IMG/VR virus record: IMGVR_UViG_3300030109_001049
Location: 1-26,795 of that record
DNA from: a virus
Reading direction: 5' to 3' (one strand)
Length of the DNA stretch: 26,795 nt
In this document: in pieces, positions 8,638-20,811 of the stretch
Layout: each line of letters opens with the position of its first letter
Numbering within the stretch: the stretch's first letter is position 1
Notes under the pieces: model-generated
The model's input: only the letters and a program-made list of their open reading frames with translations
Told to the model about the DNA's origin: nothing
The model's database searches: none
Translations under genes and position numbers: made by a program

Positions 8638-9600
8638 TTATTTGATTTTTTTAGGCTCGTCAATAGATTTGAGCGCTCTGCTTCCTTGCCAAAGATCATC
8701 TCTAAATCTACCGCAATAAGAATACTCACCAATGTGTGTTATATAATCGTTAATATAAGCATATATCTTACCACCTAAATTTCGCCATCTTTGACAAAAT
8801 CCAAAATCTTCTCCAAAATATCTTTTAGTTTTAGGGTCATGTAAAGTGTCAAATAAATTGTACATATTTGGTTGTTTAACTTCTTTACCATTTATAATGG
8901 TTGGTTGAAATATTTCGAGATCTGGGTTAGCTTCCATTAAATCAGTTAATACTTTTCTTTTAATTAACATGCATCCCGTAGGAATATGAGTAAGTTCTAC
9001 CACACCATCTTGTGCTTCAACATTATTAGGATTATCTGTCTTTACTGGATAAGTATATCCTGAATGCATTAAATCATCAGGACCTTGAATAGCATCTTCT
9101 TTTTCATGCAGTCTTCTCCACATTTTATCCCAACTTAATGTTTTCATGGGATAAGGAACACCTATAATATCTTTATCTTTTTCTAACATTTTAAAAATAG
9201 TTTTTGCTTCAAAATCAATATCTGAATCTATAAACAATAAATGAGTATAATTGTCTTCATGATTTAACATACTCGCTACACATAAATTTCTACCTTGTGT
9301 AACTAAAGAAGATTTTAATAAAGTAAAACTTACTATCATGTTTTTTCTCATACACGCTTGTTGAAATTTTAAAACCGCTTGAGTGTAATGCATAGTAACT
9401 TCGCTATGACACGGGGTACATACCATAATCTTATAGGGCGAAACATTTCCTATATTTATTTCTGTAACCTCTGACTCTACTTTATTTGTTTTTATAGTTT
9501 GATAAGTATCTTCGTTATGAGTTATGGTTTTACTCGAAGATGTTTCATTAAACCAGATGGGTTCATTGTTTTTGCCCGAGGGCGTATTACTTTTTTGCAT
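8638..9600 (-). CDS. GT-A type glycosyltransferase
   Basis: A 320-residue protein with a GT-A style nucleotide-sugar transferase core. The core begins near residue 57 (YKIMVCTPCHSEV), and a DxD-type metal/nucleotide motif occurs in 'LLFIDSDIDF' near 122-131. Downstream 'IIGVPYPMKTL' and a C-terminal 'GEDFGFCQRWRNLGGKIY' segment, with an acidic pair placed like the catalytic/acceptor region of family-2-like enzymes, support the call. The first ~55 residues look disordered. The start overlaps the end of the GT-B gene by 14 nt and has GGAG upstream, so it is co-translated with its partner. It would transfer a sugar from an activated donor; the acceptor (virion protein, host surface glycan or modified DNA base) cannot be read from sequence. 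Confidence 0.8.
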   Translation of the reverse strand: MQKSNTPSGKNNEPIWFNETSSSKTITHNEDTYQTIKTNKVESEVTEINIGNVSPYKIMVCTPCHSEVTMHYTQAVLKFQQACMRKNMIVSFTLLKSSLVTQGRNLCVASMLNHEDNYTHLLFIDSDIDFEAKTIFKMLEKDKDIIGVPYPMKTLSWDKMWRRLHEKEDAIQGPDDLMHSGYTYPVKTDNPNNVEAQDGVVELTHIPTGCMLIKRKVLTDLMEANPDLEIFQPTIINGKEVKQPNMYNLFDTLHDPKTKRYFGEDFGFCQRWRNLGGKIYAYINDYITHIGEYSYCGRFRDDLWQGSRALKSIDEPKKIK

Positions 9601-10528
9601 TGATTGCTCCTTGTAAAAATCGGGCCCAAGACGTGCTTTGCTTACGCCAATTGTAATAAGTATTTACATATTTAGATTGATCTTTTAAATGTTCTTGAAT
9701 AGACGGTTCATGTAAAGTAGCTGCAGCTGCTTCAATACCATAAGCAAACTTTTCAGCTAAATTTCTATAATTAATATCATAAGGTATATACATTGGAAAC
9801 TCTGCACCTGTTTCAAACAAAGCTCCATAATTAGTAGTAATACAATAAAGACCTGCAGCCATAGATTCTAATAAAGATATGCAAGATGTTTCTTCAAAAA
9901 TACTTGGGTACACATACATATTATAATTGTGAATATTTTCTCTAATGTATTTATTTGGTTTGTAACCAATATAATTTACGTTAGGTAATTCTCTAGCTTG
10001 TTTATAAAGAGCTGTATAGTTATGATCATTCTGATCATAAAATTGTTTTCCATATATTTCTGTAGACGAATACACATCTAAACTAATTAAAGGATTTTTA
10101 ATTAATTGCATTGCACCTAACAATACACTTAGTCCCCGCCAGGGAGTATTTTGATGAATAATTTTTATAGGTTTGTTTTGTTCATAAGGTTTAGCTTTTC
10201 CTATTTTTTCTATTCCATTTTTAATAACTAAACATTTATGACACGGTAAACCAAACATCATTCTAAATTTTTCATAATTCCAATGTGAATTAAATACATA
10301 CCAATCGTACTTGTGATGATTAGCTTTATTCTTAAACCAAGGATGTAAATTAGGTTGATCGTAAGAATTTTTTTGCCAAAGTATATTTACTTTATTTGGA
10401 TCAATAGGAATTTTACCAGGAACACTAGTACATATTTGTACTTGATCTAACAACTCTTTTTTGACGTACTTAGTTAAAAATTCTAATTGTAACTCAGTGC
10501 CGCCTTTAGGGTTTTGGTTTGTTATCAT
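9587..10528 (-). CDS. GT-B type glycosyltransferase (GT4-like)
   Basis: A 313-residue protein with features of family-4 retaining glycosyltransferases. The N-terminus carries 'NPKGGTELQLEFL' (a GGxE/GT loop). A central 'IIHQNTPWRGLSVLLGAM' matches the start of the C-terminal Rossmann domain. The nucleotide-sugar binding region contains the EX7E-type motif in 'FEETSCISLLESMAAG' (about residues 214-229). It is shorter than many GT4 enzymes, with a reduced N-terminal domain. It overlaps the upstream 63-aa gene by 23 nt and the downstream GT-A gene by 14 nt, so the two transferases form a coupled pair. There is no strong Shine-Dalgarno before its ATG, which fits translational coupling. The acceptor is unknown; proximity to the 2OG-oxygenase-like cluster suggests sequential modification, which is only inference. 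Confidence 0.82.
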   Translation of the reverse strand: MITNQNPKGGTELQLEFLTKYVKKELLDQVQICTSVPGKIPIDPNKVNILWQKNSYDQPNLHPWFKNKANHHKYDWYVFNSHWNYEKFRMMFGLPCHKCLVIKNGIEKIGKAKPYEQNKPIKIIHQNTPWRGLSVLLGAMQLIKNPLISLDVYSSTEIYGKQFYDQNDHNYTALYKQARELPNVNYIGYKPNKYIRENIHNYNMYVYPSIFEETSCISLLESMAAGLYCITTNYGALFETGAEFPMYIPYDINYRNLAEKFAYGIEAAAATLHEPSIQEHLKDQSKYVNTYYNWRKQSTSWARFLQGAINAKK

Positions 10529-11195: not shown

Positions 11196-11377
11196 TATGC
11201 TCTATTTATTTTTCTTAATGTTTTAGCAAAACGAGCTCTTTGTCCTAATTTGCCTTTTGCTTTAGCTGCTTTATTTAATTTAGCTAAAGGTATCTTTTCA
11301 CCTTTTTTAATATTTAAAGCTTTTCTTAAAGAACCTGGTTTCTTAATTGCTTTTTTAATGTTTAGTCTTTTCGTCAT
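11195..11377 (-). CDS. Very basic small virion/nucleoid-type protein
   Basis: A 60-residue protein with a very high Lys/Arg content. The pattern 'KPGSLRKALNIKKGEKIP', a 'KLNKAAKAKGKLGQRARFA' stretch and 'TLRKINR' is one I recognise from small proteins encoded in the structural modules of many marine and other phages. The LNIKK element appears twice (near residues 5-9 and 21-25). Charge and size suggest nucleic-acid binding or a packaged core protein, but this is inference. It starts immediately at the stop of the 636-aa gene (1-nt TAATG overlap) and couples to the 54-aa gene in the same way. Confidence 0.65.
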   Translation of the reverse strand: MTKRLNIKKAIKKPGSLRKALNIKKGEKIPLAKLNKAAKAKGKLGQRARFAKTLRKINRA

Positions 11378-13287
11378 TATCTTCTCCCGTCTGGTTGAGC
11401 ATCCATTCTAAAACTACCATAACGCCATGTTTGTCCTGCAGCATCGTTTTCTACTTTTAATGATAATAATCTTCCTCGTGCTCTAGTATCTACTTTTTCT
11501 GTAGTGCTGGTTATTGTAAAAGGTCCGAGTGGTGACCCTGTTTGAATATCAGAAGGAAAGTCAGAAATAAACAAAGTTACTTTTGAATCACCTACTAAAA
11601 ATTTATAGTCAGGCATAAATCTTTTCATTGACATAAATAATTCTCCGTCGTCAATATCAAAATCTCCTGATCTAATAAATGCTGCAATTGCTGTAGTTCC
11701 CGAACTGTTAACTTGGTCAGTTCCTATTTCATGAGCATAATATATTGATGCTCCATATTTATTTGTAATGCCTGATATTTCAGAAAAAGCTGGAGTGCTT
11801 GTTGCTTCATAGTCTGTTGCATAAGGTAAATTAAATACACCTTGATCTTGATAAGTAGTTCTGTCTAAAGAACTGGTAGTCCAACAGTTTTCTTGATAAT
11901 TATAAGTTACACATCGATCTATTTGTAAAGACTCCGATTTAGGATAAAACCAATTTACTTCTGTATATAAAGTATTAGGTGCTGAATAAACTGTAGAAGA
12001 CGCATCATAGTTAATTCCTAAATCTCCATTACGTGTAGTAAATACAAAATCTTCTACAAGACATGGCAGAGCTTTAACAGTACCGTCGTACATAAAAAAT
12101 CCACCTTCACCCGACATCCAATATACAGCACCATTAACGTAACTTGCTGCATGTTGAGCGATACATCCACAGTTTGTACCAACTTGTCTAACACTAAATG
12201 TAAATGGTGGACCTACAAATTGAATAACATAAGCAGCTAAATCAGTTAATACAAATACATAATCTTTACCTTGTAAAGCTGCAGTAATTTTATTTCCTGT
12301 ATCTAATCTAAATGTTCCCGCAGTATTAGTAGCTTTAGGCAAATAAGTATTAAGGTCTTCTTGATTAGAAAACCTTACAAACATGGGATCTTGAGTGTTA
12401 GGTGAAGCGATAGTAGTTTCGGTTCCAAAATGAAATAAGTGTCGATCTCTATCTGAAACTAATGTAAATCTAGTTGCAGTTGGATTTGCAGATGTAGAAA
12501 AACCAGATGTTGATTGCGAAGCTCTTATTGTTCGTGGATTAGTTGCTCCCGCGTTCCACGTAAAAGTTTTGCCGTTGAATACTGTTGCAACCAATACTTC
12601 TCCAAAATTATCTAAAGACCAGTTACCTGGATCTAGAGTTACATCACTTGTTCCTCGTTCTGTTCCCCATGTAGAATCACCCCACAAGTACGTGCTCCAT
12701 CCATAACCTTTAGTTTGAAAAGTAGGACCAACTTTAACGTATGGATTAATACTAGCGGATCCTGAAGCAGAGGCAGCGCCAGAGGCATTAACTCGCATTT
12801 GAATCGTAAAACTGTTTGCATTAGGAACAGTTAATATTTCAAAAGCTCCTTCAGTAAAATCAGTCGCTACGTATCCAGTAGGAGGAGTAACTGATGTAAA
12901 CGTTACATATCTTCCAATCTCTAATCCATGACCTGTTTTGTTAACTGTTACATTATTCTGACTAGAGAAAGTATCAAATGTGGCTCCAGTAATAGCTGTG
13001 TCTAAAGGAGTAATATCGTAAAAAGCTTCTCCGTAATATAAAAATAAACCTTGAGACGTTCCAATAGCAGTATATCGTTCACCTTTTAAACTAGTAAATG
13101 CTAATTGAGCTCTAGCTGCACCGGGTACAGTTTCATTAGCTTGTGTAAGTTGTGTCCAACCTCCTATTTTTTCTGGTGCTGTATATCTAAAGCGTACAAA
13201 GTCGCCATCTACCCATTGTCCTGGAAGAGCTGAAGGTACACTTTGTTTATTAAAACCTGCTGCAAATTTGACTTTTTTTAGTGCCAT
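11377..13287 (-). CDS. Tail hub/nozzle protein, P22 gp10 / T7 gp12-like
   Basis: A 636-residue protein opening 'LKKVKFAAGFNKQSVPSALP' and then 'DFVRFRYTAPEKIGGWTQL'. This N-terminus is typical of podovirus tail hub/nozzle proteins (P22 gp10 'DNA stabilization' type, functionally equivalent to T7 gp12). The body is beta-rich with repeated blades ('FGEVLVATVFNGKTFTWNAG', 'DRHLFHFGTETTIASP', 'KDYVFVLTDLAAYVIQFVGP', 'GAVYWMSGEGGFFMYDGT'), consistent with a beta-propeller. An inserted module at about 98-184 contains 'VTVNKTGHGLEIGRYVTF' and 'FEILTVPNANSFTIQM', a common interposed beta domain in phage proteins. It is separated from the connector genes by the fibre genes and the 2OG block. Only weak ribosome-binding sequence (TTTGAGAC) precedes the ATG. 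Confidence 0.7.
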   Translation of the reverse strand: MALKKVKFAAGFNKQSVPSALPGQWVDGDFVRFRYTAPEKIGGWTQLTQANETVPGAARAQLAFTSLKGERYTAIGTSQGLFLYYGEAFYDITPLDTAITGATFDTFSSQNNVTVNKTGHGLEIGRYVTFTSVTPPTGYVATDFTEGAFEILTVPNANSFTIQMRVNASGAASASGSASINPYVKVGPTFQTKGYGWSTYLWGDSTWGTERGTSDVTLDPGNWSLDNFGEVLVATVFNGKTFTWNAGATNPRTIRASQSTSGFSTSANPTATRFTLVSDRDRHLFHFGTETTIASPNTQDPMFVRFSNQEDLNTYLPKATNTAGTFRLDTGNKITAALQGKDYVFVLTDLAAYVIQFVGPPFTFSVRQVGTNCGCIAQHAASYVNGAVYWMSGEGGFFMYDGTVKALPCLVEDFVFTTRNGDLGINYDASSTVYSAPNTLYTEVNWFYPKSESLQIDRCVTYNYQENCWTTSSLDRTTYQDQGVFNLPYATDYEATSTPAFSEISGITNKYGASIYYAHEIGTDQVNSSGTTAIAAFIRSGDFDIDDGELFMSMKRFMPDYKFLVGDSKVTLFISDFPSDIQTGSPLGPFTITSTTEKVDTRARGRLLSLKVENDAAGQTWRYGSFRMDAQPDGRR

Positions 13288-13331
13288 AGTCTCAAATATA
13301 TAGGGTTTTTAATTTTTTTGGTAGTATTATA

Positions 13332-13934
13332 TTACAATTTTAACTCACTTAAAGTATTATCTGAACCCAATATTCCTTTATAAAAAGTATTAAAAGCAAG
13401 ACTTATTCTAGTATCATGATTTTTTTTGGTATCGACTCGATGAATTAATGATGATGGAAACATTATTAATTGGCCTGTTTTTACAGGAAGCCACCACGTA
13501 TCTGAATTCCACATATTATATTTTTCTATCTCGGGTTTAATCTGTTGATATTCTTTTGGATAAGAAAATTTAATGCTATCATCTGCATTTAAATAAAATA
13601 CACCTGATATAATTGAATTAGGATGAGCATGAGGATGATGATGCTCACCTTGTTCCATATAATTTATCCAAGATTGAGTTACGTATAATTCAACTTTATG
13701 TTTAGGTGATATAATTTTATCTAAATAGTTTTTACAGTTTTTATCTATAAAACTTTTTATACTTTTTAATTCTGGTTTATCTAAAATATAGGTATCTTTT
13801 GTAAAAGAGTTAAAGTTTTTATTTGTCTTGTTTTTTTGATTATCAACAAAACTTAATTCTTTTTTTGTAAATGGTCGATTTATTTCTGAAATATAAACAG
13901 GGGTTGGAAATAAGCTATGGGTATTATACTTCAT
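13332..13934 (-). CDS. 2OG-Fe(II) oxygenase-like protein (2OG-FeII_Oxy_5 / TIGR02466 type)
   Basis: A 200-residue protein taken from the ATG giving MKYNTHSLFPTPVYISEI. A 16-codon longer reading exists, but 'LFPTPVY' near the N-terminus is the family's usual opening, and the shorter start overlaps the upstream stop by only 11 nt. The core carries 'GEHHHPHAHPNSIISGVFYL' (His-rich metal-binding segment, residues 97-115), then 'LIMFPSSLIHRV' with the distal His165 and 'TRISLAFN' with Arg176 placed for 2-oxoglutarate binding. Family members are predicted Fe(II)/2OG-dependent oxygenases, mostly with unknown substrate. It is the last oxygenase of the cluster, and directly precedes the tail hub gene. 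Confidence 0.8.
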   Translation of the reverse strand: MKYNTHSLFPTPVYISEINRPFTKKELSFVDNQKNKTNKNFNSFTKDTYILDKPELKSIKSFIDKNCKNYLDKIISPKHKVELYVTQSWINYMEQGEHHHPHAHPNSIISGVFYLNADDSIKFSYPKEYQQIKPEIEKYNMWNSDTWWLPVKTGQLIMFPSSLIHRVDTKKNHDTRISLAFNTFYKGILGSDNTLSELKL

Positions 13935-14487
13935 CCCACAATGTTGTATCAACATTCCAAACGTGAGTATCTTCATTAACATTTAGATGAGAAGCCTGTG
14001 CATACCATTTTTGTTGGTCTTCATTCCATCTAATGTAATAAGGAGCTTGGTCAGGTTGTGTACCTATAACGTTTCCATCGTTATCTGTTATGTCTTGTCC
14101 TGCTAAAGGATTACTATATTCTGTAACTGTTGGATAATCTACTGGTGCTTTCCAACTAAAATCTTCATTACTTAAATGCCATGAAGCGTAAGGTTGTGGT
14201 TCTACAAATCTATCAGCAGTTTCTAAATAAACTCCTCCACGCCCTGTAGCTTGATTTCTAAAATTGTGATTATATGAATATTGTTTCCATACATTTTGCT
14301 CTTCAGAATACATATGTTTGTATAGATTTTTTACATATGTTTCGCCATCTACATGCATATCGTTTTCTCCTAAAGGACCGTTTGAAGTTGGTATATCATT
14401 AGAAGCAACAATACACTCTTGTACTTGCCATTCTAACTCTCCAGTAAATGGATTTGGTTGTTTCTCTAATCTTGCAAAATGTGCCAT
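13924..14487 (-). CDS. MAHFA-type marine phage protein, unknown role
   Basis: A 187-residue protein beginning MAHFARLE, with 'VWKQYSYNHNFRNQATGRGG' (about residues 66-85), 'QPYASWHLSNEDFSWKAPV' (about 98-116) and a C-terminal 'YIRWNEDQQKWYAQ'. I recognise this overall plan (MAHFA..., a 'QTSYN.NFR' core, then 'P.PS W.L......W.AP..YP') from a family common in marine cyanophage genomes. To my knowledge it has no established function, although it tends to occur near structural and tail genes. This copy carries an extra stretch between the APV motif and the C-terminal Trp motif. A clean AAGGAG lies before the ATG. It sits inside the 2OG-oxygenase group, so it might be a substrate or partner, or simply cargo of the same region. 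Confidence 0.65.
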   Translation of the reverse strand: MAHFARLEKQPNPFTGELEWQVQECIVASNDIPTSNGPLGENDMHVDGETYVKNLYKHMYSEEQNVWKQYSYNHNFRNQATGRGGVYLETADRFVEPQPYASWHLSNEDFSWKAPVDYPTVTEYSNPLAGQDITDNDGNVIGTQPDQAPYYIRWNEDQQKWYAQASHLNVNEDTHVWNVDTTLWDEV

Positions 14488-14526
14488 AATAATTCTCCTT
14501 ATATAATATTTAAAAATGCGTGTAAA

Positions 14527-15141
14527 TCATTTTTTACCTTTAAAAAACGCCGGTAGACCAAGCATGGGTCGGTCATCAAATATAACAGCATTCTTAGTTT
14601 TTTTGTTATAGTGTAAAAATACTTGTGCACAGTCGGCTCCCGTAAAAGGTTTTCTCCAGTGTTCTAAATCACATCCTTTGTATATCAACATATCTCCTGG
14701 ATTCAAATCTATTTTAACTCCTTTTTTGCCTTCTTTTCCTGTAGGTTCTAAATAGATAGGCCAATTTTGACCTCCTAAATTTAAAGTCGTAGATATATCA
14801 CAAGCCATTCTATCTTTATGTCTTTTTAAAACATCACCTTTCTTATATATTCGTCCATAAGAATAATTAGGATGCAGTTTTAAACCTGTTTCTTTTTCCA
14901 TAATGGGCTTGATGTGCTGTAATAAAGTTTCAAATACAGTATCAGAATATATACAAAACGTTTTAGGGACTTGAGTATCACCAAAAGAACCAAATAATTT
15001 TTCTTCTGGATTAATGTATCTATGATGTATTAAAACATGAGTTAAATACCTTCTGTTTAAAAAATAATTAAATAAAAAAGTACAAAAATTTTTATCTAAA
15101 ACTTTCTTTAAAACTTTATATTTATTTTTTTTAAAACTCAT
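14527..15141 (-). CDS. 2OG-Fe(II) oxygenase-like protein (HKD...EHW type)
   Basis: A 204-residue protein of a type known from marine phages and marine bacteria. 'YSYGRIYKKGDVLKRHKDRM' (94-112) supplies the HxD pair His108/Asp110 and is followed by 'CDISTTLNLG'. 'GDMLIYKGCDLEHWRKPF' (149-166) supplies distal His161, then 'CAQVFLHYN'. The usual Arg about ten residues after the distal His is Gln173 here, so the 2OG carboxylate contact must be made by another residue (for example Arg163 or Arg111) or is altered. The gene overlaps the preceding one by 4 nt (ATGA). The substrate is unknown. The fold assignment is confident; activity is inferred. Confidence 0.78.
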   Translation of the reverse strand: MSFKKNKYKVLKKVLDKNFCTFLFNYFLNRRYLTHVLIHHRYINPEEKLFGSFGDTQVPKTFCIYSDTVFETLLQHIKPIMEKETGLKLHPNYSYGRIYKKGDVLKRHKDRMACDISTTLNLGGQNWPIYLEPTGKEGKKGVKIDLNPGDMLIYKGCDLEHWRKPFTGADCAQVFLHYNKKTKNAVIFDDRPMLGLPAFFKGKK

Positions 15142-15641
15142 TTTATATCTTTATTGTAATAATTTAAATTAATTACTAACCTATTTTTTTCATCCGTGCA
15201 AGTGGTTCCTGTATGTTCATAACGTCCGTCAAAAATAACTACTCTATTTTCTCGACTTAATATTTCTCTACCATTTTTAAAAATAGTTTTACCATTATTG
15301 GTATTAACATAATAAATGGCTGTCCACCATTTATGGTTCCAATCAAAATCAGTATGGTGATCAAATTTTTTAATATTTTTAGTCCGCAATAAAAGATTAG
15401 CTTTTATTCTAGCTATTGCTGTAGCATTTAATTTTTTTATTAAAGGATCTAACATATTACAAAAATCAGAGTTTGTTCCTCCTGTTTGATAAAACAAATG
15501 TGAAAATTGAAATTCATCTTCTTTATTATTTCCAGTAACACAACTAAAGTACCAAGGAAAATAACCGCTGTTCATAGTATCATTTATTTTATTAAAACTT
15601 TCCCAATCTAAAAAATGATCATATATAAAAATATCTTTCAT
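15138..15641 (-). CDS. 2OG-Fe(II) oxygenase-like protein (small)
   Basis: A 167-residue protein with an intact facial triad. 'FDHHTDFDWNHKWWTAIYYV' (93-112) holds His96/Asp98 and a strand that pairs with 'KTIF'. 'NRVVIFDGRYEHTGTT' holds the distal His143, and 'EKNRLVINLNYY' holds Arg154, 11 residues later, suited to binding the 2OG C5 carboxylate. The N-terminus 'IFIYDHFLDWESFNKINDTM' is the helical start typical of prolyl-4-hydroxylase-like minimal enzymes. It is separated from the upstream oxygenase gene by 2 nt and overlaps the downstream one by 4 nt. No dedicated ribosome-binding site is clear, which fits translational coupling. The acceptor substrate is not predictable. Confidence 0.8.
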   Translation of the reverse strand: MKDIFIYDHFLDWESFNKINDTMNSGYFPWYFSCVTGNNKEDEFQFSHLFYQTGGTNSDFCNMLDPLIKKLNATAIARIKANLLLRTKNIKKFDHHTDFDWNHKWWTAIYYVNTNNGKTIFKNGREILSRENRVVIFDGRYEHTGTTCTDEKNRLVINLNYYNKDIK

Positions 15642-15643
15642 TT

Positions 15644-16252
15644 TTATTTAAAACTATATCCTAAATTCCACACGACTAAAGAATATCTAGTGCCTCGTGT
15701 AATGGGTGTAACTCTATGCCAAGTATCTGAAGGAAAAACTATTAAACTTCCTTTACCTCCTATTTCTTTTACCCTATGGGGTTTACATTTTTTTACATCT
15801 TGATGATCTCTAAAATCAAATTCAAAATGTCCTCCTTTATAATCTTTAGGATCCGATAAATTTATAGTCATAGATATTTTTCTAAGTTTATTATGTGTAT
15901 TTAAATTATTAGGAGTGTCATACGGTAAACTAGTATCTATGTGCCAGTTATAAAATTGATTAGGTCCGTATATAGTAAATTGAGCAGGCTCTGTCCAATC
16001 CCATTGAAAATTCCACTCTGCTTCTTTATTTGCTTGATGCACAAAAGGTTGAAGTTCTCTGTAAAGCCATTCTTCATCTAAAAAAACTACATCAGAGTTT
16101 CTATATTTTTTTGTATTTATTTGTTTTTTGTTTGTTATTTTTCTTACAGTTGCTTTTTTAACTTTGTGTCTTAAACCATACTTAATAACATCATCACAAA
16201 ATTTATCTGATACAGCTTTTTTAAAATAAAAATATTTATGTTTTAAAATCAT
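15644..16252 (-). CDS. PKHD-type 2OG-Fe(II) hydroxylase
   Basis: About 202 residues from the ATG giving MILKHKYFYF. A longer reading using TTG adds 20 residues but is unlikely, because the chosen ATG forms an ATGA overlap with the upstream stop. The protein has the layout of PiuC/PKHD-type prolyl-4-hydroxylase-like enzymes: 'FTIYGPNQFYNWHIDTSLP' with His104/Asp106, 'RKISMTINLSDPKDYKGGHF', 'GSLIVFPSDTWHRVTP' with distal His179, and 'RGTRYSLVVW' with Arg189. All four catalytic/cosubstrate residues are present, making this one of the most canonical enzymes in the cluster. Members hydroxylate proteins or small molecules; the substrate here is unknown. Confidence 0.87.
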   Translation of the reverse strand: MILKHKYFYFKKAVSDKFCDDVIKYGLRHKVKKATVRKITNKKQINTKKYRNSDVVFLDEEWLYRELQPFVHQANKEAEWNFQWDWTEPAQFTIYGPNQFYNWHIDTSLPYDTPNNLNTHNKLRKISMTINLSDPKDYKGGHFEFDFRDHQDVKKCKPHRVKEIGGKGSLIVFPSDTWHRVTPITRGTRYSLVVWNLGYSFK

Positions 16253-16872
16253 TGATGCATTTCCTCTCTCCAAGCTATTCCATTTTCTTGCCAATATACT
16301 GGCCACGTCCAACTTGTCATAGAATATTTAACTCCTGATGTAATAGGAGATACAGTGTGGGGATGCGTCACTTGACTAGGCCATATTAAAGCATGTCCTA
16401 CTGGTATTTTTTTATTATCGAATTTTTGTCTTGGAAGTTTAAGTACACCACCTTTAAAATTATCATTTAATTTAACTACCATTGTTATGTGACTTACATC
16501 ATTATGCAAATGTAATTCGTCTTTTTTACTACCATCATACCTAACAATAAATGGGTCAAACCAACCTATAACTTTCGTAGAGGGCCATTCTTTTTTTATC
16601 ATTTTAGAAATAGTTTGAGAATAATGTATAGTAAAATCTTCAAAAAATTTTTCTCCCGCAAAATATCTAGATCGCATAATATTAAAGTACAACGTTGAAT
16701 CTTTAGCAACTTTAGATTGATGCCAATAATTAAATTTATTTTTTAATTCATCTCCTATGTTACAAAGTTCTTTACAAAAAGATTCAGTAAATAAAGGTGT
16801 AATTAAAATATCTTTATGGTTTTTATATTTAATTCCTGCATCTTTGTGCACACCTTTTAAATAATCAATCAT
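16249..16872 (-). CDS. 2OG-Fe(II) oxygenase, PLOD/P4H-like
   Basis: A 207-residue protein resembling the catalytic domain of procollagen-lysine/prolyl hydroxylases. 'DELHLHNDVSHITMVVKLND' (118-137) includes His123/Asp125. 'FKGGVLKLPRQ' is the conserved turn after the beta-helix strand, 'GHALIWPSQVTHPHTVSPIT' carries distal His172 (His170 is nearby), and 'SGVKYSMTSW' follows. At the site where a 2OG-binding Arg is expected there is Lys182, also found in some family members. The start directly abuts the upstream stop (TAAATG) and the end overlaps the next gene by 4 nt. The similarity to collagen-type lysyl hydroxylases is interesting next to a Gly-rich fibre and two glycosyltransferases, but the substrate remains an inference. 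Confidence 0.84.
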   Translation of the reverse strand: MIDYLKGVHKDAGIKYKNHKDILITPLFTESFCKELCNIGDELKNKFNYWHQSKVAKDSTLYFNIMRSRYFAGEKFFEDFTIHYSQTISKMIKKEWPSTKVIGWFDPFIVRYDGSKKDELHLHNDVSHITMVVKLNDNFKGGVLKLPRQKFDNKKIPVGHALIWPSQVTHPHTVSPITSGVKYSMTSWTWPVYWQENGIAWREEMHQ

Positions 16873-17451
16873 TTAATAACACCAAGATACAAAAGAATAT
16901 CTTGTTCCTTTCTTTATAGGCTTAACTAAATGTGGATATAAAAATATAGAAGGAAAAATAATTAAATCTCCAGCTTTAAATTTAATTTCATAATCATCAA
17001 ACATTATAAATTCTCCACCTTTGTAGTCATCATTTAAGACCGCAACAATACTTAAAATTGGTATTCCTTTCGTTTCTCCATTAAATAAATCATGAATATG
17101 ATCTACATGTTTAGACATAATTTGATTTTTTTTATATCTGTTAAATCTAATTTTAGAAAATCCATTCCAACTATTAATGGTGTCTCCACCAATTTTATCT
17201 GTAATAATATATTTTTCTATTGCTTTCCAGGTTAGTTTCATTAACTCTTCTAAATAAGTTAATTTTTCTCCCCAACAAATATTAAGTTCTTTACTACCAT
17301 TTTTAACATAAGTATCACTCGCATCTTGAAAGTTTTGATATTTGTGTTGTTCCCAAGTTTTATCTTTTTTAAGTTCTTCTAAAGAAGTTTTTAAAATATT
17401 ATGAGGAATCCAATTATCTAACTGAAGTATGTAGTCTTTTAAATTTTTCAT
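16873..17451 (-). CDS. 2OG-Fe(II) oxygenase-like hydroxylase
   Basis: A 192-residue protein with a full set of signature residues. 'FSKIRFNRYKKNQIMSKHVD' (98-117) carries His115/Asp117. 'LSIVAVLNDDYKGGEFIM' is the standard beta-strand/turn, 'GDLIIFPSIFLYPHLVKPIK' carries distal His174, and 'KGTRYSFVSW' carries Arg184. The pattern is the P4Hc-like form seen in cyanophages and in SAR11 and other marine bacteria. The start is an ATGA overlap with the unknown 231-aa gene, and the stop abuts the start of the following oxygenase. It shares only motif-level similarity with its neighbours, so it is not a recent duplicate. Confidence 0.86.
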   Translation of the reverse strand: MKNLKDYILQLDNWIPHNILKTSLEELKKDKTWEQHKYQNFQDASDTYVKNGSKELNICWGEKLTYLEELMKLTWKAIEKYIITDKIGGDTINSWNGFSKIRFNRYKKNQIMSKHVDHIHDLFNGETKGIPILSIVAVLNDDYKGGEFIMFDDYEIKFKAGDLIIFPSIFLYPHLVKPIKKGTRYSFVSWCY

Positions 17452-18143
17452 TTAATAAATTTTTTAGGTCTTAATTTATTACCTAGCTTCATTAATTTCC
17501 AAGCTACATTAACAAAATAATTTTGTGGTTGAGAAGTTGCATGTGCTTTAAACAACTCCTCTGTCCATTTTAATCTTTTTAAATTAAAATCATCATTAAG
17601 CTTTTTACTTACAAATCTGACATAATATAAAGGCTGGTTTTCTTTTATTTTAATTGGTTTTTTATCGTTTAATATTTCAAAGGTAAAATCTACAGGTCTT
17701 TGCCAACTGTGAATATCAAAGGTTCCACTAATAAATCTTGTGTTACTTACTTCACCATGTAAGAAAGGAGGATAAACTTCTAGCCACACAGGTTCGTCTG
17801 CAACAAACATATACGAAACTAAAACAGAACATAAAGCTTTATCTGTATCTGTATATTGTCCAAATCTAGGGTCAACCATATGGTCTACAAAACCTTGTTT
17901 TTGACTTACCCAAATTCTTTTTTCTTCTCTAAAATATTTAATTTCAACGTCAAATGGAGATTTAATAACATAAAAATTTTTTAAAAAATTAAAGTTAGAG
18001 GGACATTGTTTAAATAAACTATTTGTTTTTTTGTAAAATCCTGAAATTTTTTCAGGAGTTTTTATCATTCTTTCTAAAGATTCAATAAGATGATATTTAT
18101 CAGAATAACTTTTTTTGAATGGTACCCAGCCTATTTTTGTCAT
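17448..18143 (-). CDS. Unrecognised protein inside the 2OG-oxygenase cluster
   Basis: A 231-residue protein from the ATG giving MTKIGWVPFKK. A TTG two codons upstream is the alternative, but the chosen ATG forms the ATGA overlap typical of this block. It contains 'FLKNFYVIKSPFDVEIKYF' (about 53-71), 'FGQYTDTDKALCSVLVSYMF', 'WLEVYPPFLHG', 'ISGTFDIHSWQRPVDFTFEI' and 'PLYYVRFV'. It has no HxD...H...R facial triad, so I do not call it an oxygenase. The aromatic, beta-rich composition would suit a small-ligand or carbohydrate-binding fold. I have the impression that similar proteins travel with phage 2OG oxygenases, so it may supply or bind their substrate. Function is unknown. Confidence 0.6.
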   Translation of the reverse strand: MTKIGWVPFKKSYSDKYHLIESLERMIKTPEKISGFYKKTNSLFKQCPSNFNFLKNFYVIKSPFDVEIKYFREEKRIWVSQKQGFVDHMVDPRFGQYTDTDKALCSVLVSYMFVADEPVWLEVYPPFLHGEVSNTRFISGTFDIHSWQRPVDFTFEILNDKKPIKIKENQPLYYVRFVSKKLNDDFNLKRLKWTEELFKAHATSQPQNYFVNVAWKLMKLGNKLRPKKFIK

Positions 18144-18688
18144 TCCCAATTTTCCCTGTTTCTAAAATTAAAAGCTATGGCATATTTAACAGTATCATCT
18201 ATTATTCTTTTTGTTTTATGTCTAAGATGTGCTCTAAATAAAACAATTTTATTTTTTATAATTTCTGTTTTTAAATTTAATTCAGGAAATTCTAAGTAGT
18301 GTCCTTTACAAGTATTTAAAAATAATACGCCTGATATACTGTTGCCAGAATGATCATGCAGGGCAGTAAAACAATTTCTTGTCATTTTATTTCCCCAAGC
18401 ATCTTTTAAATATGAATTACCCATTTTTGTATCTAAATTAAAATGATCTATGCAAAAAGAAAGTGCAGCATTTAGATCTAAATCGTAAATAAAATACGTC
18501 CAATCCGTCATTTCTCCACGAACATTAGTTCTATGGTTCATATTATTTGGAAGAGTAATACCGTGTTCTATTTCTCTAATTAATTTTTTTGTATTTATAT
18601 TTTCTAAAATACATTCATAAAAAAAAGTTGGTTTTTCTATATTTCTCTCTAAAATTAAATTAGTCTGTTTTACTCTAATAGCTTTCAT
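18140..18688 (-). CDS. Divergent 2OG-Fe(II) oxygenase-like protein (HxH variant)
   Basis: A 182-residue protein that leads the oxygenase block. 'FTALHDHSGNSISGVLFLN' (107-125) matches the metal-binding strand of the TIGR02466-like family, but with HDH (His111, His113) where HxD is usual. 'KIVLFRAHLRHKTKRI' gives distal His157, and 'KYAIAFNFRNR' places Lys168 where Arg is typical. The protein is either a variant enzyme or a degenerate, non-catalytic paralogue. Its ATG follows directly after a 16-nt hairpin with no Shine-Dalgarno, and a promoter-like sequence lies only a few bases upstream. It overlaps the next gene by 4 nt. It shares the 'SISGVxFLN' motif style with the last oxygenase of the cluster (13332-13934), the only visible within-cluster kinship. 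Confidence 0.65.
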   Translation of the reverse strand: MKAIRVKQTNLILERNIEKPTFFYECILENINTKKLIREIEHGITLPNNMNHRTNVRGEMTDWTYFIYDLDLNAALSFCIDHFNLDTKMGNSYLKDAWGNKMTRNCFTALHDHSGNSISGVLFLNTCKGHYLEFPELNLKTEIIKNKIVLFRAHLRHKTKRIIDDTVKYAIAFNFRNRENWE

Positions 18689-18704
18689 AATGTATTGCTA
18701 CATT
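18689..18704 (-). promoter_or_regulatory. GCAA-tetraloop hairpin directly before a start codon
   Basis: AATGTA and TACATT form a perfect 6-bp stem around GCAA (a GNRA tetraloop) on the minus strand, ending exactly at the ATG of the first oxygenase-like gene. It replaces any Shine-Dalgarno sequence. It could affect initiation, or it could be a chance palindrome in AT-rich DNA. Confidence 0.35.
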
Positions 18705-18730
18705 ATATAGATAAATAAAATCTTATTCAA
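18702..18730 (-). promoter_or_regulatory. Sigma70-like promoter for the 2OG-oxygenase block
   Basis: TTGAAT (18730-18725) and a perfect TATAAT (18707-18702) are separated by 17 nt on the minus strand. The -35 element lies inside the last codons of the Gly-rich gene. Predicted initiation near 18695 would leave a leader of only about 6-7 nt before the ATG at 18688, that is, an almost leaderless message. AT-rich DNA makes TATAAT common, so spacing plus -35 agreement is the main support. Confidence 0.45.
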
Positions 18731-19661
18731 TAGTTAAAGTACCAGTAGATAAAAAGGTAATTATTGCACTTCCATCTTGAGAAGCAGTTATTGAACCTTC
18801 TGGACTGACTGTAACAAGGGGCACTAAAGCAGTAGGGCATCTTAAATGAACTCTACCAGATCCTCCCGTTCCGTTTCCTCCGCCTTGAACTGGGCCGCCG
18901 CCTCCGCCGCCGCCTCCAGTATTTGCTGCAGCGTTTCCTCTTCCACCGGCTCCTCCGCCAGACCCTCCTGATCCGCCAGATCCGCTAGGTACGTTTCCAA
19001 ATCCACCGCCACCTCCACCAGAGAATGTTTGTGAACTTGGTGAAATAAATGTAGTTGAACTTCCAGGTCCTCCTGGTCCTCCAGAGTTAGAATGTGATCC
19101 TGCTGATCCAGAAGCTCCTCCGCCTCCGCCACCAGCCGCTCCATAGGCCGGTCCATCTAATGAACCTGGTGATTGACCACCTTGTGCGCCTTCAGGTGGA
19201 GAGTATCCACCAGCGTTTCCATTTCCTCTTGGATTAGAACCTACATATCCTCCCGGTCCAGATCCACCGCCTGCACCTCCAGGCTGACCAGCAGCGTTTA
19301 AATCAGGAGATCCTTGATTACCTCCGCCACCGCCTCCGGTTGCTTCAACCGCAAATGAAGAACCTGTAAATACTGAAGAATTACCACCAGATACACCTCT
19401 TCCAGATCCTTGTGCTGGTGGTACTGATCCAGATCCTCCAGCTCCAACTGTAATTGTGTATGTTCCTGTTTCGACTTCTTGTTGACCTTGGGGAATTGAA
19501 AATTCTCTCATTCCGCCGCCGCCTCCGCCGCCGCCGTAGTTAGAACCTCCAGCGCCTCCGCCAGCAACAATTAAATAACCAAATGGAATTTTATTTGCTG
19601 ATCCAGCTTGAAGACCAAATGCTCTTGATGCTGATGCTCCAAAACTTCCTAGTAGTGGCAT
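18723..19661 (-). CDS. Glycine-rich tail fibre / adhesin-type protein
   Basis: A 312-residue protein dominated by glycine. Gly runs occur at residues 43-50, 109-114, 177-182, 215-220 and 249-256, with Ser, Asn, Pro and Ala between them (including GGPGGPG near 194-200). The N-terminal frame 'FGYLIVAGGGAGGSNYG' and 'TGTYTITVGAGGSG' is the hallmark of phage Gly-rich fibre domains, and 'GGSGRVHLRCP' (266-276) matches the strand that closes such domains. A short beta-rich C-terminus (289-312) follows. These domains resemble the polyglycine-helix bundles of T-even gp38-type adhesins and probably form the distal receptor-binding part. GGAGGAG precedes the ATG. The gene is locally GC-rich compared with its surroundings because of GGN codons, with triplet tracts prone to slippage. 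Confidence 0.75.
   Translation of the reverse strand: MPLLGSFGASASRAFGLQAGSANKIPFGYLIVAGGGAGGSNYGGGGGGGGMREFSIPQGQQEVETGTYTITVGAGGSGSVPPAQGSGRGVSGGNSSVFTGSSFAVEATGGGGGGNQGSPDLNAAGQPGGAGGGSGPGGYVGSNPRGNGNAGGYSPPEGAQGGQSPGSLDGPAYGAAGGGGGGASGSAGSHSNSGGPGGPGSSTTFISPSSQTFSGGGGGGFGNVPSGSGGSGGSGGGAGGRGNAAANTGGGGGGGGPVQGGGNGTGGSGRVHLRCPTALVPLVTVSPEGSITASQDGSAIITFLSTGTLTIE
18894..18917 (-). repeat. 12-bp tandem duplication in Gly-codon tract
   Basis: GCCGCCGCCTCC occurs twice in immediate succession on the plus strand, encoding consecutive glycines (249-256) of the Gly-rich protein. A similar tract lies at 19513-19536, encoding residues 43-50. Gain or loss of a unit stays in frame and would only change the glycine run length. 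Confidence 0.8.
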
Positions 19662-19682
19662 AATCTTTCTCCTCCTAATTTA

Positions 19683-20753
19683 TTACGCAAACTGTGTTTG
19701 AGACGCTAATACTGTAAATGTCGCCGAACCAGTTTTAATAACTGTATATGAATAAACATCTAAGGAACTTGCATTACCAGAAGTTGGCGCAGATCCGCCT
19801 TGATATTCTGGAGTAACACTTGATCCATCAATTTGAACTGCACTATTGTAATAAGGTGTACTACCTTGTTTTACAATGTGTGCAATAGTTATTGATTCTC
19901 CTGTATCCATAATTGAATCTAAAGATGTAGAACCATCTCCTCTAATATTTAGAGTCCAGTTAGCTCCTGCATCTGAACTAAAGTTCCAAACTGCTTGTGT
20001 AAGAACATCGTAGTTAATTGTTCCTGTAGCGGCTGTTGCTTCAGTTGTAACTTTTTCTGCAACACTTTGAATTTTACCTTGGCCATTAAAAGTTGCTCTT
20101 CCATAACCTTTTGGTGTAATGTTTAAATCTATATTAGCATCTCCACCAGTTGCAGATAAATTTGGCGCATTACCTGTAGCTGCGTTAGCGACTGTAAATT
20201 CATTAACTGCAGAGCCAGTTGTTGAAAATTTAATTTGTTCGGCTGAATTTTCGTCTAAGATAGCTTTTGTGTTATCAATAATAATATTTTGTGCGTTAGT
20301 ATCTAAGTCTGCTGAAAGTTGTGGGGAGAAGTCAGACGATAACTCTGTAAATGCTGTATCAACAACATTTGTTCCATCCGAGTAAACCATTTTTGTGCCT
20401 TTGTCAGCTGCTGCCCAAGTTACTCCAGTTCCTGAAGCAGTTTTAAACGTCACTGTGTGAGAACCAGTAGTTCCGTTATCGACTACAAAAGTTTTTTCAA
20501 TTGAATCAGGGATAGTTACATTAACTGCTCCTCCGATTGTTCCTGTTAATTTTAATACTGCATTTTTACCGTTTGATAAAGCGCCGTTTGAAAAAGTTAA
20601 AGTTGCACCTGATGTAATACCTACGGCATCATAACCACCAATTGCTTGTTCTAAAATTAATAAGTTTGTGTTTGTAATTTGTCCCCAAGTTCCTGAATTT
20701 TCTCCAGTAGCTTGAACTGTAAGTTTTAAACTTGCTGATGTCGAATTCGCCAT
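19683..20753 (-). CDS. Tail fibre-like structural protein
   Basis: A 356-residue, low-charge, Thr/Ser/Asn/Gly-rich beta protein. The N-terminus 'ASLKLTVQATGENSGTWGQI' followed by 'TNTNLLILEQAIGGYDAVGI' is one I recognise from tail-fibre or receptor-binding genes of marine phages. A repetitive beta region follows ('VLKLTGTIGGAVNVTIPDS', 'KTFVVDNGTTGSHTVTFKTA'), then 'LDTNAQNIIIDNTKAI', a typical fibre spacer style. It ends with a 'YSYTVIKTGSATFTVLASQTQF' segment seen at the C-termini of such proteins. It lies between the 489-aa protein and the Gly-rich fibre, so the three probably form the host-recognition part of the tail. A GGAG ribosome-binding site precedes the ATG in the 58-nt intergenic gap. 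Confidence 0.65.
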   Translation of the reverse strand: MANSTSASLKLTVQATGENSGTWGQITNTNLLILEQAIGGYDAVGITSGATLTFSNGALSNGKNAVLKLTGTIGGAVNVTIPDSIEKTFVVDNGTTGSHTVTFKTASGTGVTWAAADKGTKMVYSDGTNVVDTAFTELSSDFSPQLSADLDTNAQNIIIDNTKAILDENSAEQIKFSTTGSAVNEFTVANAATGNAPNLSATGGDANIDLNITPKGYGRATFNGQGKIQSVAEKVTTEATAATGTINYDVLTQAVWNFSSDAGANWTLNIRGDGSTSLDSIMDTGESITIAHIVKQGSTPYYNSAVQIDGSSVTPEYQGGSAPTSGNASSLDVYSYTVIKTGSATFTVLASQTQFA

Positions 20754-20792
20754 ATTTTTATTCTCCGATTTTCTTAATTTATTAAAATTTTA

Positions 20793-20811
20793 TTATAGTG
20801 TCAAACTATAA
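20793..20811 (-). terminator. Weak stem-loop after the 489-aa gene
   Basis: TTATAGT and ACTATAA form a perfect 7-bp stem with a 5-nt loop immediately after the stop codon of the 489-aa gene. The stem is almost all A/T and no clean U-run follows, so it may only pause polymerase or protect the mRNA end. Confidence 0.25.

Follow-up and report, generated by a model that had tools for sequence, protein, structure and literature searches.

Why should a phage carry seven predicted oxygenases of the 2-oxoglutarate- and Fe(II)-dependent (2OG) type in a single block among its virion genes? The stretch of DNA analysed here (positions 1 to 26,795 of the metagenomic virus record IMGVR_UViG_3300030109_001049, 26,795 bases in all and hereafter called the window) has its late module on the minus strand. 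Nine co-directional minus-strand genes at 13332-18688 form an island between a Gly-rich fibre gene and STAB, the gene of a virion structural protein. We named them A, b, C, D, E, F, G, h and I in the order of transcription, with STAB and an upstream gene, U, as the flanks. The initial annotation had described seven of the nine as 2OG-Fe(II) oxygenase-like. Our analysis confirmed the open reading frames (ORFs) at these positions and the prediction that seven of the nine are of this type, the class of G being settled by a structure model.

Families, ligands and selection

In a Pfam search, five of the seven proteins (A, C, D, E and I) scored above the curated 2OG cut-off, F fell 1.1 bits short of it, and G gave no match at E ≤ 1. 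The best PHROG match was likewise labelled 2OG for five, the exceptions being F ('DNA endonuclease V') and G ('ferrochelatase'). The predicted ligands are well preserved in relatives of each protein. For E, H124 was present in all 111 relatives, D126 in 110, and H199 and R209 in 109 each. For C, H115, H174 and R/K184 were found in all 105 relatives, and position 117 was D in 71 or E in 33, with a single H. In the 63 relatives of F the counts ranged from 55 to 60 (H96 59, D98 55, H143 58, R154 55). The weakest case is D, where the HxD motif was found in only 10 of 15 relatives, with H172 and K/R182 in all 15. These four proteins thus have the HxD/E...H triad followed by a distal R or K. In A and I, HxH replaces HxD. 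Among 34 relatives of A, H111, H157 and K/R168 were invariant and H113 was present in 33; among 183 relatives of I, H118 and H181 were present in 179 and H120 in 180, and the distal position 192 was R in 94 and F in 78 (R or K in 99).

The initial annotation had also seen visibly different motif styles in the block, and this description holds: at a blastp threshold of E < 1e-3 the seven proteins fall into four groups, C-D-E, A-I, F and G. Tandem duplication of one gene is, in view of these four groups, unsupported. The nine genes are under purifying selection. Their dN/dS values, where defined, were 0.04-0.34 in comparison with close relatives (L090, L095, L017 and L094) and reached 0.44 with the more distant L173 and L174, with a single value of 0.71 for I in L173, where the identity is no more than 32%.

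The 'DNA endonuclease V' label of F looks wrong, because the only Pfam families seen at E ≤ 1 are two 2OG families, with no match to an endonuclease V model, and the HxD...H...R pattern is conserved. The same label is attached to Mosig gene 58 (L304, 7612-8124), which lies inside a 2OG array.

Gene G gave no match to a ferrochelatase domain or to any other Pfam family at E ≤ 1, and its profile, searched against PDB sequences, gave one irrelevant match and no solved relative. An AlphaFold2 model calculated from 34 sequences (mean pLDDT 93.2, pTM 0.88) has the double-stranded beta-helix fold, which the initial annotation had named as the structural check of its claim; we ran this check for G. 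In a Foldseek search with the model, the best solved match was the prolyl-4-hydroxylase of Pseudomonas putida (4j25, E 3.5e-8), followed by SnoN, PHD-type prolyl hydroxylases and HygX, and nearly all of the 50 matches listed were 2OG oxygenases. VIA-align gave a Z score of 17.1 for SnoN (rmsd 2.9, 180 residues) and 16.2 for the P. putida enzyme (rmsd 2.9, 161 residues), which is a tie within the margin of the program. H108, D110, H161 and R163 were present in 118 of 118 relatives. Unlike C, E and F, whose basic residue lies 10-11 positions past the distal histidine, G has no R or K at the usual distance, and R163 is at +2.

Judging from this model, in which weight is given to the match with the prolyl-hydroxylase barrel over the whole protein and not to the lack of ferrochelatase matches, the 'ferrochelatase' gene G is very probably an oxygenase. 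This bears on published arguments. Both Wittmers et al. 2022 (PMC9599517) and a 2024 time series (PMC11561400) argue from a ferrochelatase gene adjoining 2OG genes. As the 'ferrochelatase' of HTVC023P-type phages is very probably another oxygenase, these iron- or heme-partner arguments need revisiting.

Variation and exchange of the island

How unusual is such a block? We collected related islands by two scans of viral contigs with the flank genes rather than the oxygenases, taking the best 80 loci of about 600 from each. The 158 sequences of this census (the window, the two-scan loci and four named phages) included 80 with both flanks and 72 after de-duplication. Dropping L085, L086 and L087, in which U is not in its usual place, and L004, which is like the window, left 68 islands, some near-duplicates among them. 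These contain 1-11 2OG genes (median 4.5), with at least five in 34 of the 68; one family, x2OG6, was left out of the counts since its ligand pattern was seen in only 3 of 19 members. When only the seven families of the window are counted, the median is 4 and the range 0-9, with at least seven genes in 8 of the 68. A Pfam-only search of three records (L041, L145 and L013) found 9, 7 and 5 distinct 2OG ORFs, some below the cut-off, and our own profiles found 10, 9 and 9. In STAB-bearing loci, many of them retrieved with 2OG queries, 653 2OG genes are located upstream of STAB and one downstream.

The window is therefore towards the high end of a range that is common in this group. The initial annotation had called the array exceptional, which is an overstatement given that 10 of the 68 islands have seven or more 2OG genes at the same place. 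It had named equally large arrays with a known function in relatives as evidence against its claim; comparably large arrays are indeed common, but the known function is missing. Arrays near neck or fibre genes also occur in T4-like pelagiphages of another family, the Kyanoviridae, with six 2OG-type genes in Mosig and five in HTVC008M if genes labelled ferrochelatase, endonuclease V and phytanoyl-CoA dioxygenase are taken in. HTVC033P has two 2OG genes and one G. A second type of island, seen in 13 of the 68 (L068, L078, L051, L084 and nine others), encodes its 2OG proteins on the other strand from STAB and lacks the Gly-rich fibre gene and h. Also of note is a small protein of about 100-125 residues without a Pfam or PHROG match, which is often encoded at, or close to, the end of the island that adjoins STAB (L041, 6789-7166, and 17 relatives).

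The set, number, order and strand of the 2OG genes vary between relatives. In four relatives (L090, L095, L096 and L097, of which the last three are alike in fibre and island genes), the fibre and all nine island genes are 79-97% identical to those of the window, whereas STAB is only 45-46% identical and the upstream fibre aligns along part of its length at 37-44%. L005, L008 and L009 present the mirror image: their similarity to the window is 0.95-0.97 for STAB and 0.90-0.93 for U, but only 0.06-0.23 for the 2OG set, and the fibre is unmatched. More generally, the 14 pairs of loci with a STAB similarity above 0.93 have a 2OG-set similarity of only 0.05-0.43. For the 39 loci with a STAB match of at least 0.9, the set similarity to that match was 0.20, compared with 0.21 for random pairs. 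For the 15 loci with a fibre match of at least 0.6, it was 0.67 to the best fibre match and 0.20 to the best STAB match.

A similar picture emerged from a correlation of similarities over the islands in which the fibre profile gave a hit and one or more 2OG genes are present (56, or 55 after removal of a near-identical one, with x2OG6 excluded). In these 55 islands from the backbone scans, rho between the 2OG set and the fibre was 0.285 (0.286 with STAB partialled out, p 3e-4), whereas STAB (0.03) and U (-0.16) showed no such correlation. It persisted when the window type was removed (n = 53, rho 0.307) and in the STAB-scan loci together with the window and the named phages (n = 24; 0.21, partial 0.21, p 0.018). 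An earlier test on 79 loci gave 0.46 (STAB partial 0.08, p 0.024), but many of these loci had been fetched by 2OG queries and we do not rely on it. STAB and U themselves correlate at -0.02 in the two-scan set and at 0.67 in the STAB-only set, because the former mixes loci chosen by either flank. In summary, the island is exchanged as a block or piecemeal, and its 2OG set tends to follow the fibre and not the flanks. Of the two roles suggested initially, a multi-step pathway and an arsenal against different substrates, the arsenal fits better than a fixed pathway, given the changes in set, number, order and strand and the differences between the 14 STAB-alike pairs.

The 2OG genes are not the only enzyme genes at this place. 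A Pfam scan of 76 otherwise unnamed ORF clusters from the islands (76 of 87, with 11 removed by hand, four at contig ends and seven from named phages) found carbamoyltransferase (5), tryptophan halogenase (4), sulfotransferase (Sulfotransfer_3, 5), Methyltransf_24 (5) and APS kinase (1), further 2OG families (6), DUF6445 (3) and JmjC_2 (2), besides tail collar, peptidase and other domains; 25 of the 36 families are listed. The controls were 76 of 133 clusters from downstream of the islands (long proteins and later rows of the list being left out), and yielded one amidase, one helicase, one S74 chaperone domain and not a single tailoring enzyme. Tailoring enzymes other than 2OG, four kinds and the APS kinase, thus make up about 20 of 76 island clusters and 0 of 76 controls (Fisher p 4.5e-7), where the 20 is the sum of the five family counts on the assumption that no protein belongs to two families. 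Identity thresholds of 85% and 70% were used to cluster the sets, and in both of them part of the loci came from 2OG queries. By profile, 19 of 72 islands have at least one such gene (carbamoyltransferase in 9, halogenase in 6, sulfotransferase in 4, methyltransferase in 2 and APS kinase in 1), and a separate halogenase search of ten records was positive in three.

The richest tailoring set seen is that of L033 (117-9969), with a carbamoyltransferase, two sulfotransferase-like genes (one below the cut-off), a tryptophan halogenase (364 bits), a methyltransferase and several 2OG genes. In L013 (3431-5258), a sulfotransferase gene and an APS-kinase-like gene are separated by one gene, and the latter might supply the sulfate donor for the former.

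Possible substrates of the island enzymes

What do these enzymes act on? The reading that we prefer, with some hesitation, is that the island is a swappable kit for the tailoring of side chains, expressed with the fibre, which chemically decorates the receptor-binding apparatus. The enzymes would be made late and together with the fibre, and each would draw on O2 and 2-oxoglutarate for the hydroxylation of exposed side chains (or of attached sugars) of the fibre and its putative partner h, whose gene directly follows the fibre gene in most fibre-bearing relatives. The decoration would change receptor binding or recognition, so that a swap of the cassette would exchange the chemistry of the adhesin along with its sequence. 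The ligand patterns, purifying selection, cassette exchange and accompanying tailoring enzymes suggest such a role, as does the absence of a nonribosomal peptide or polyketide synthase from the 25 of 36 island families listed. Virion receptor-binding proteins are favoured as the substrate because the module is located among virion genes and travels with the fibre, and because G resembles peptide hydroxylases.

A bolder form of this proposal appears rather doubtful: the adhesin would owe its diversity to chemistry in addition to sequence, with interchangeable hydroxylases (in relatives also halogenases, sulfo-, carbamoyl- and methyltransferases) maturing the phage's own fibre, in the manner of the enzymes that tailor a natural-product peptide, and each cassette providing its own non-standard side chains. 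If the adhesin is indeed decorated, viruses could change receptor binding in a way that is invisible to comparison of fibre sequences. Whatever the substrate, nature has gathered small oxygenases, halogenases and transferases with testable substrates in a compact island, for which there are cultured relatives, HTVC023P and HTVC027P.

Several observations weigh against decoration of the fibre. The first 2OG gene of an island tracks the fibre (0.18, p 5e-4), but the last one tracks neither the fibre (-0.01) nor STAB (0.00; 46 islands, x2OG6 included). The link to the fibre is hence partly one of proximity, and because the tie weakens along the island, the fibre and the genes near it appear to travel together while the far end is shuffled further. 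The permutation test treats loci as exchangeable although some islands are near-duplicates, and among the loci fetched by 2OG queries some pairs resemble each other in their 2OG genes but not in their fibres. All 13 islands of the second type still carry 2OG genes, on the reversed strand, without the Gly-rich fibre. P-SSM2 has some of its 2OG genes in the midst of replication genes, and Syn1 and S-SCSM2R have halogenase and 2OG genes that do not directly adjoin fibre genes, though the P-SSM2 halogenase is next to tail-fibre assembly genes. Besides peptide prolyl hydroxylases, G also resembles small-molecule enzymes such as SnoN. Finally, glycosyltransferases encoded downstream in the window leave room for a glycan substrate.

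The last point leads to the main rival, in which the enzymes would act with the two glycosyltransferases on glycans or lipids of the host surface, and the receptor would be masked or changed so as to prevent co-infection by other phages or the trapping of progeny on debris. Carbamoyl-, sulfo- and methyltransferases commonly use sugars as substrates, which counts in favour of this explanation. So does the host recognition cluster of pelagimyophages, with its fibres and glycosyltransferases, for which a surface change that prevents co-infection was proposed (PMC7029224), and Iyer et al. suggested capsule decoration for a cyanophage cluster (PMC7824862). However, neither a flippase nor a polymerase is present among the 25 of 36 island families listed, and late expression, as expected of a module among virion genes, would leave little time to remodel the surface. 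We consider modification of the host surface somewhat unlikely.

The other explanations are improbable, and the small-molecule and central-metabolism readings are less likely than decoration of either the virion or host glycans. The enzymes could make or modify a small molecule, such as an amino-acid or sugar metabolite that bears halogen, carbamoyl or hydroxyl groups, as Iyer et al. 2021 proposed for the ten-gene cluster of S-SSM6a (PMC7824862). Halogenase, carbamoyltransferase and 2OG genes do occur in the same islands, and SnoN, the best VIA-align match of G, is an enzyme of an antibiotic pathway. Against this, the family searches revealed no scaffold-building gene in the island of the window, and 53 of 72 islands lack all the other enzyme classes that were looked for. 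A hotspot of recombination between the conserved flanks might also gather genes that are useful but unrelated and functionally independent of the fibre, as the similar flanks of differing islands and the behaviour of the last 2OG gene would suggest, but such hitch-hiking is hardly probable in view of the non-random content of the islands and the purifying selection on the nine genes. Least probable is a role as metabolic auxiliary genes that lower 2-oxoglutarate or steer nitrogen or iron metabolism, which was put forward for cyanophages (PMC3037559) and could draw on the upregulation of iron transport genes in HTVC027P infection, where gp73 is mentioned (PMC12753301), and on the enrichment of 2OG and 'ferrochelatase' genes in seasonal viruses (PMC11561400), but for which one enzyme would suffice, which leaves four adjacent sequence groups, exchange and tailoring partners unexplained and loses its iron-partner argument if G is an oxygenase.

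Known systems, phage affiliation and gene layout

Phages with many 2OG genes, and several such genes in the HTVC023P-type group, are already published. In phages of this type, described as widespread and abundant and infecting an abundant ocean bacterium, Wittmers et al. 2022 reported eight non-orthologous 2OG auxiliary metabolic genes, often nearby in the genome, and one or two 'ferrochelatases' (PMC9599517). The phage group and the kinds of genes are those of the window, but the 2OG genes are called nearby 'although not adjacent' and the ferrochelatase is taken as real; fibre-linked exchange and other tailoring enzymes at this place are absent from the parts of that paper covered here. The S-SSM6a cluster, with carbamoyltransferases, an amino-acid halogenase and several 2OG and cupin-like enzymes (PMC7824862), shares the mixed content of the islands; it belongs to a jumbo T4-like cyanophage and was interpreted in terms of a secondary metabolite or capsule decoration.

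Synechococcus phage S-SCSM1 has 24 2OG genes, interpreted as reprogramming host metabolism (PMC9602691). Like the window it combines many diverse 2OG genes, four of which (240-243) directly precede tail fibre genes, but they are spread over a T4-like genome of 228 kb. The pelagimyophage cluster is, like the island, a hypervariable region among the virion genes of SAR11 phages with tail fibres and modifying enzymes, but it is about 45 kb long, belongs to T4-like phages and has several glycosyltransferases as its most conspicuous feature (PMC7029224). Phold noted EGLN3-like 2OG proteins across marine phages, without using the word ferrochelatase (PMC12774648). In our searches, which covered open-licence papers only, we found no account of fibre-linked exchange, of mixed tailoring content in podoviral pelagiphages, of unrelated enzyme sets between near-identical flanking genes, or of the re-reading of 'ferrochelatase'.

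The window shares its late module with HTVC023P-type isolates. By STAB, the nearest isolates are HTVC027P (69% identical over the whole query) and HTVC023P (56%), and their gene order is similar. The window is probably a fragment of a relative of these pelagiphages, since their genomes are 58-61 kb long, and Pelagibacter is the presumed host on the strength of the same relatives. The features of the region are given in the table.

Table. Island genes, flanks and glycosyltransferase-like genes of the window
Feature	Position	Strand	Evidence and remarks
Upstream flank U, 356 aa	19683..20753	-	
Gly-rich fibre/adhesin-like protein	18723..19661	-	PF21722 Gly_rich_2 30.5 bits; exchanged along with the island
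A, 182 aa, predicted 2OG-FeII_Oxy_5 type, HxH...H...K	18140..18688	-	PF13759 27.7 bits (cut-off 27); phrog_81 E 3.9e-15
b, 233 aa, phrog_17480, weakly dUTPase-like fold; likely ATG start 18143	17448..18149	-	without an oxygenase match
C, 192 aa, predicted 2OG-FeII_Oxy_3, HxD...H...R	16873..17451	-	PF13640 48.9 bits
D, 207 aa, predicted 2OG-FeII_Oxy_3	16249..16872	-	PF13640 39.4 bits
E, 222 aa, predicted PKHD-like 2OG-FeII_Oxy_3, HxD...H...R; likely ATG start 16252	15644..16312	-	PF13640 61 bits
F, 167 aa, predicted 2OG type, HxD...H...R; PHROG label 'DNA endonuclease V'	15138..15641	-	PF13640 25.9 bits (cut-off 27); phrog_274
G, 204 aa, predicted prolyl-4-hydroxylase-like barrel; PHROG label 'ferrochelatase'	14527..15141	-	structure model
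h, 187 aa, phrog_7759	13924..14487	-	without an oxygenase match
I, 216 aa, predicted 2OG-FeII_Oxy_5/TIGR02466, HxH...H...R	13332..13982	-	PF13759 75 bits, TIGR02466 72.3 bits, both over cut-off
Downstream flank STAB, virion structural/'stabilization' protein	11377..13287	-	phrog_3287
Glycosyltransferase-like, group 1 type	9587-10528	-	PF00534 46.5 bits; downstream of STAB
Glycosyltransferase-like, weakly Anp1-like	8638-9600	-	PF03452 16.4 bits, under cut-off; phrog_1574

The island had been placed between fibre genes and the tail hub. The fibre side is correct; the gene on the other side, STAB, matches a PHROG labelled 'virion structural protein', not tail hub, and in a relative it is labelled 'stabilization protein'. 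The chain of overlapping genes described at the outset is real: b/C and F/G overlap by 4 nucleotides, C and D abut, and A/b and D/E have 4-nucleotide ATGA overlaps if the first internal ATG is taken as the start. Promoter and terminator scans of 11300-20800 gave counts close to the shuffled means (46 vs 43.3 and 5 vs 3.6), and a tRNA search of the window found none.

As to the individual proteins, PKHD-type hydroxylase models match E below their cut-offs, and PiuC was matched in the PDB at E 9.5e-7. The nearest solved chains of I are the uncharacterised proteins 3bvc and 2rg4. An oxygenase match was sought for b and h in Pfam and PHROGs, and none was found; against PDB sequences, h gave weak matches, the best at E 0.075. 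Gene b lacks a conserved HxD motif and was not counted as an eighth oxygenase. Its model, calculated from 25 sequences (pLDDT 82.7), had one Foldseek match at E ≤ 0.001, a dUTPase (TMq 0.37). It represents a divergent phage family in which C49, G142, F144, W149 and R151 are invariant in the 25 sequences, and relatives were found in cyanophages and a roseophage (among L255, L256, L257 and L270-L301). The weakly Anp1-like protein and the neighbouring glycosyltransferase gene occur together in several relatives.

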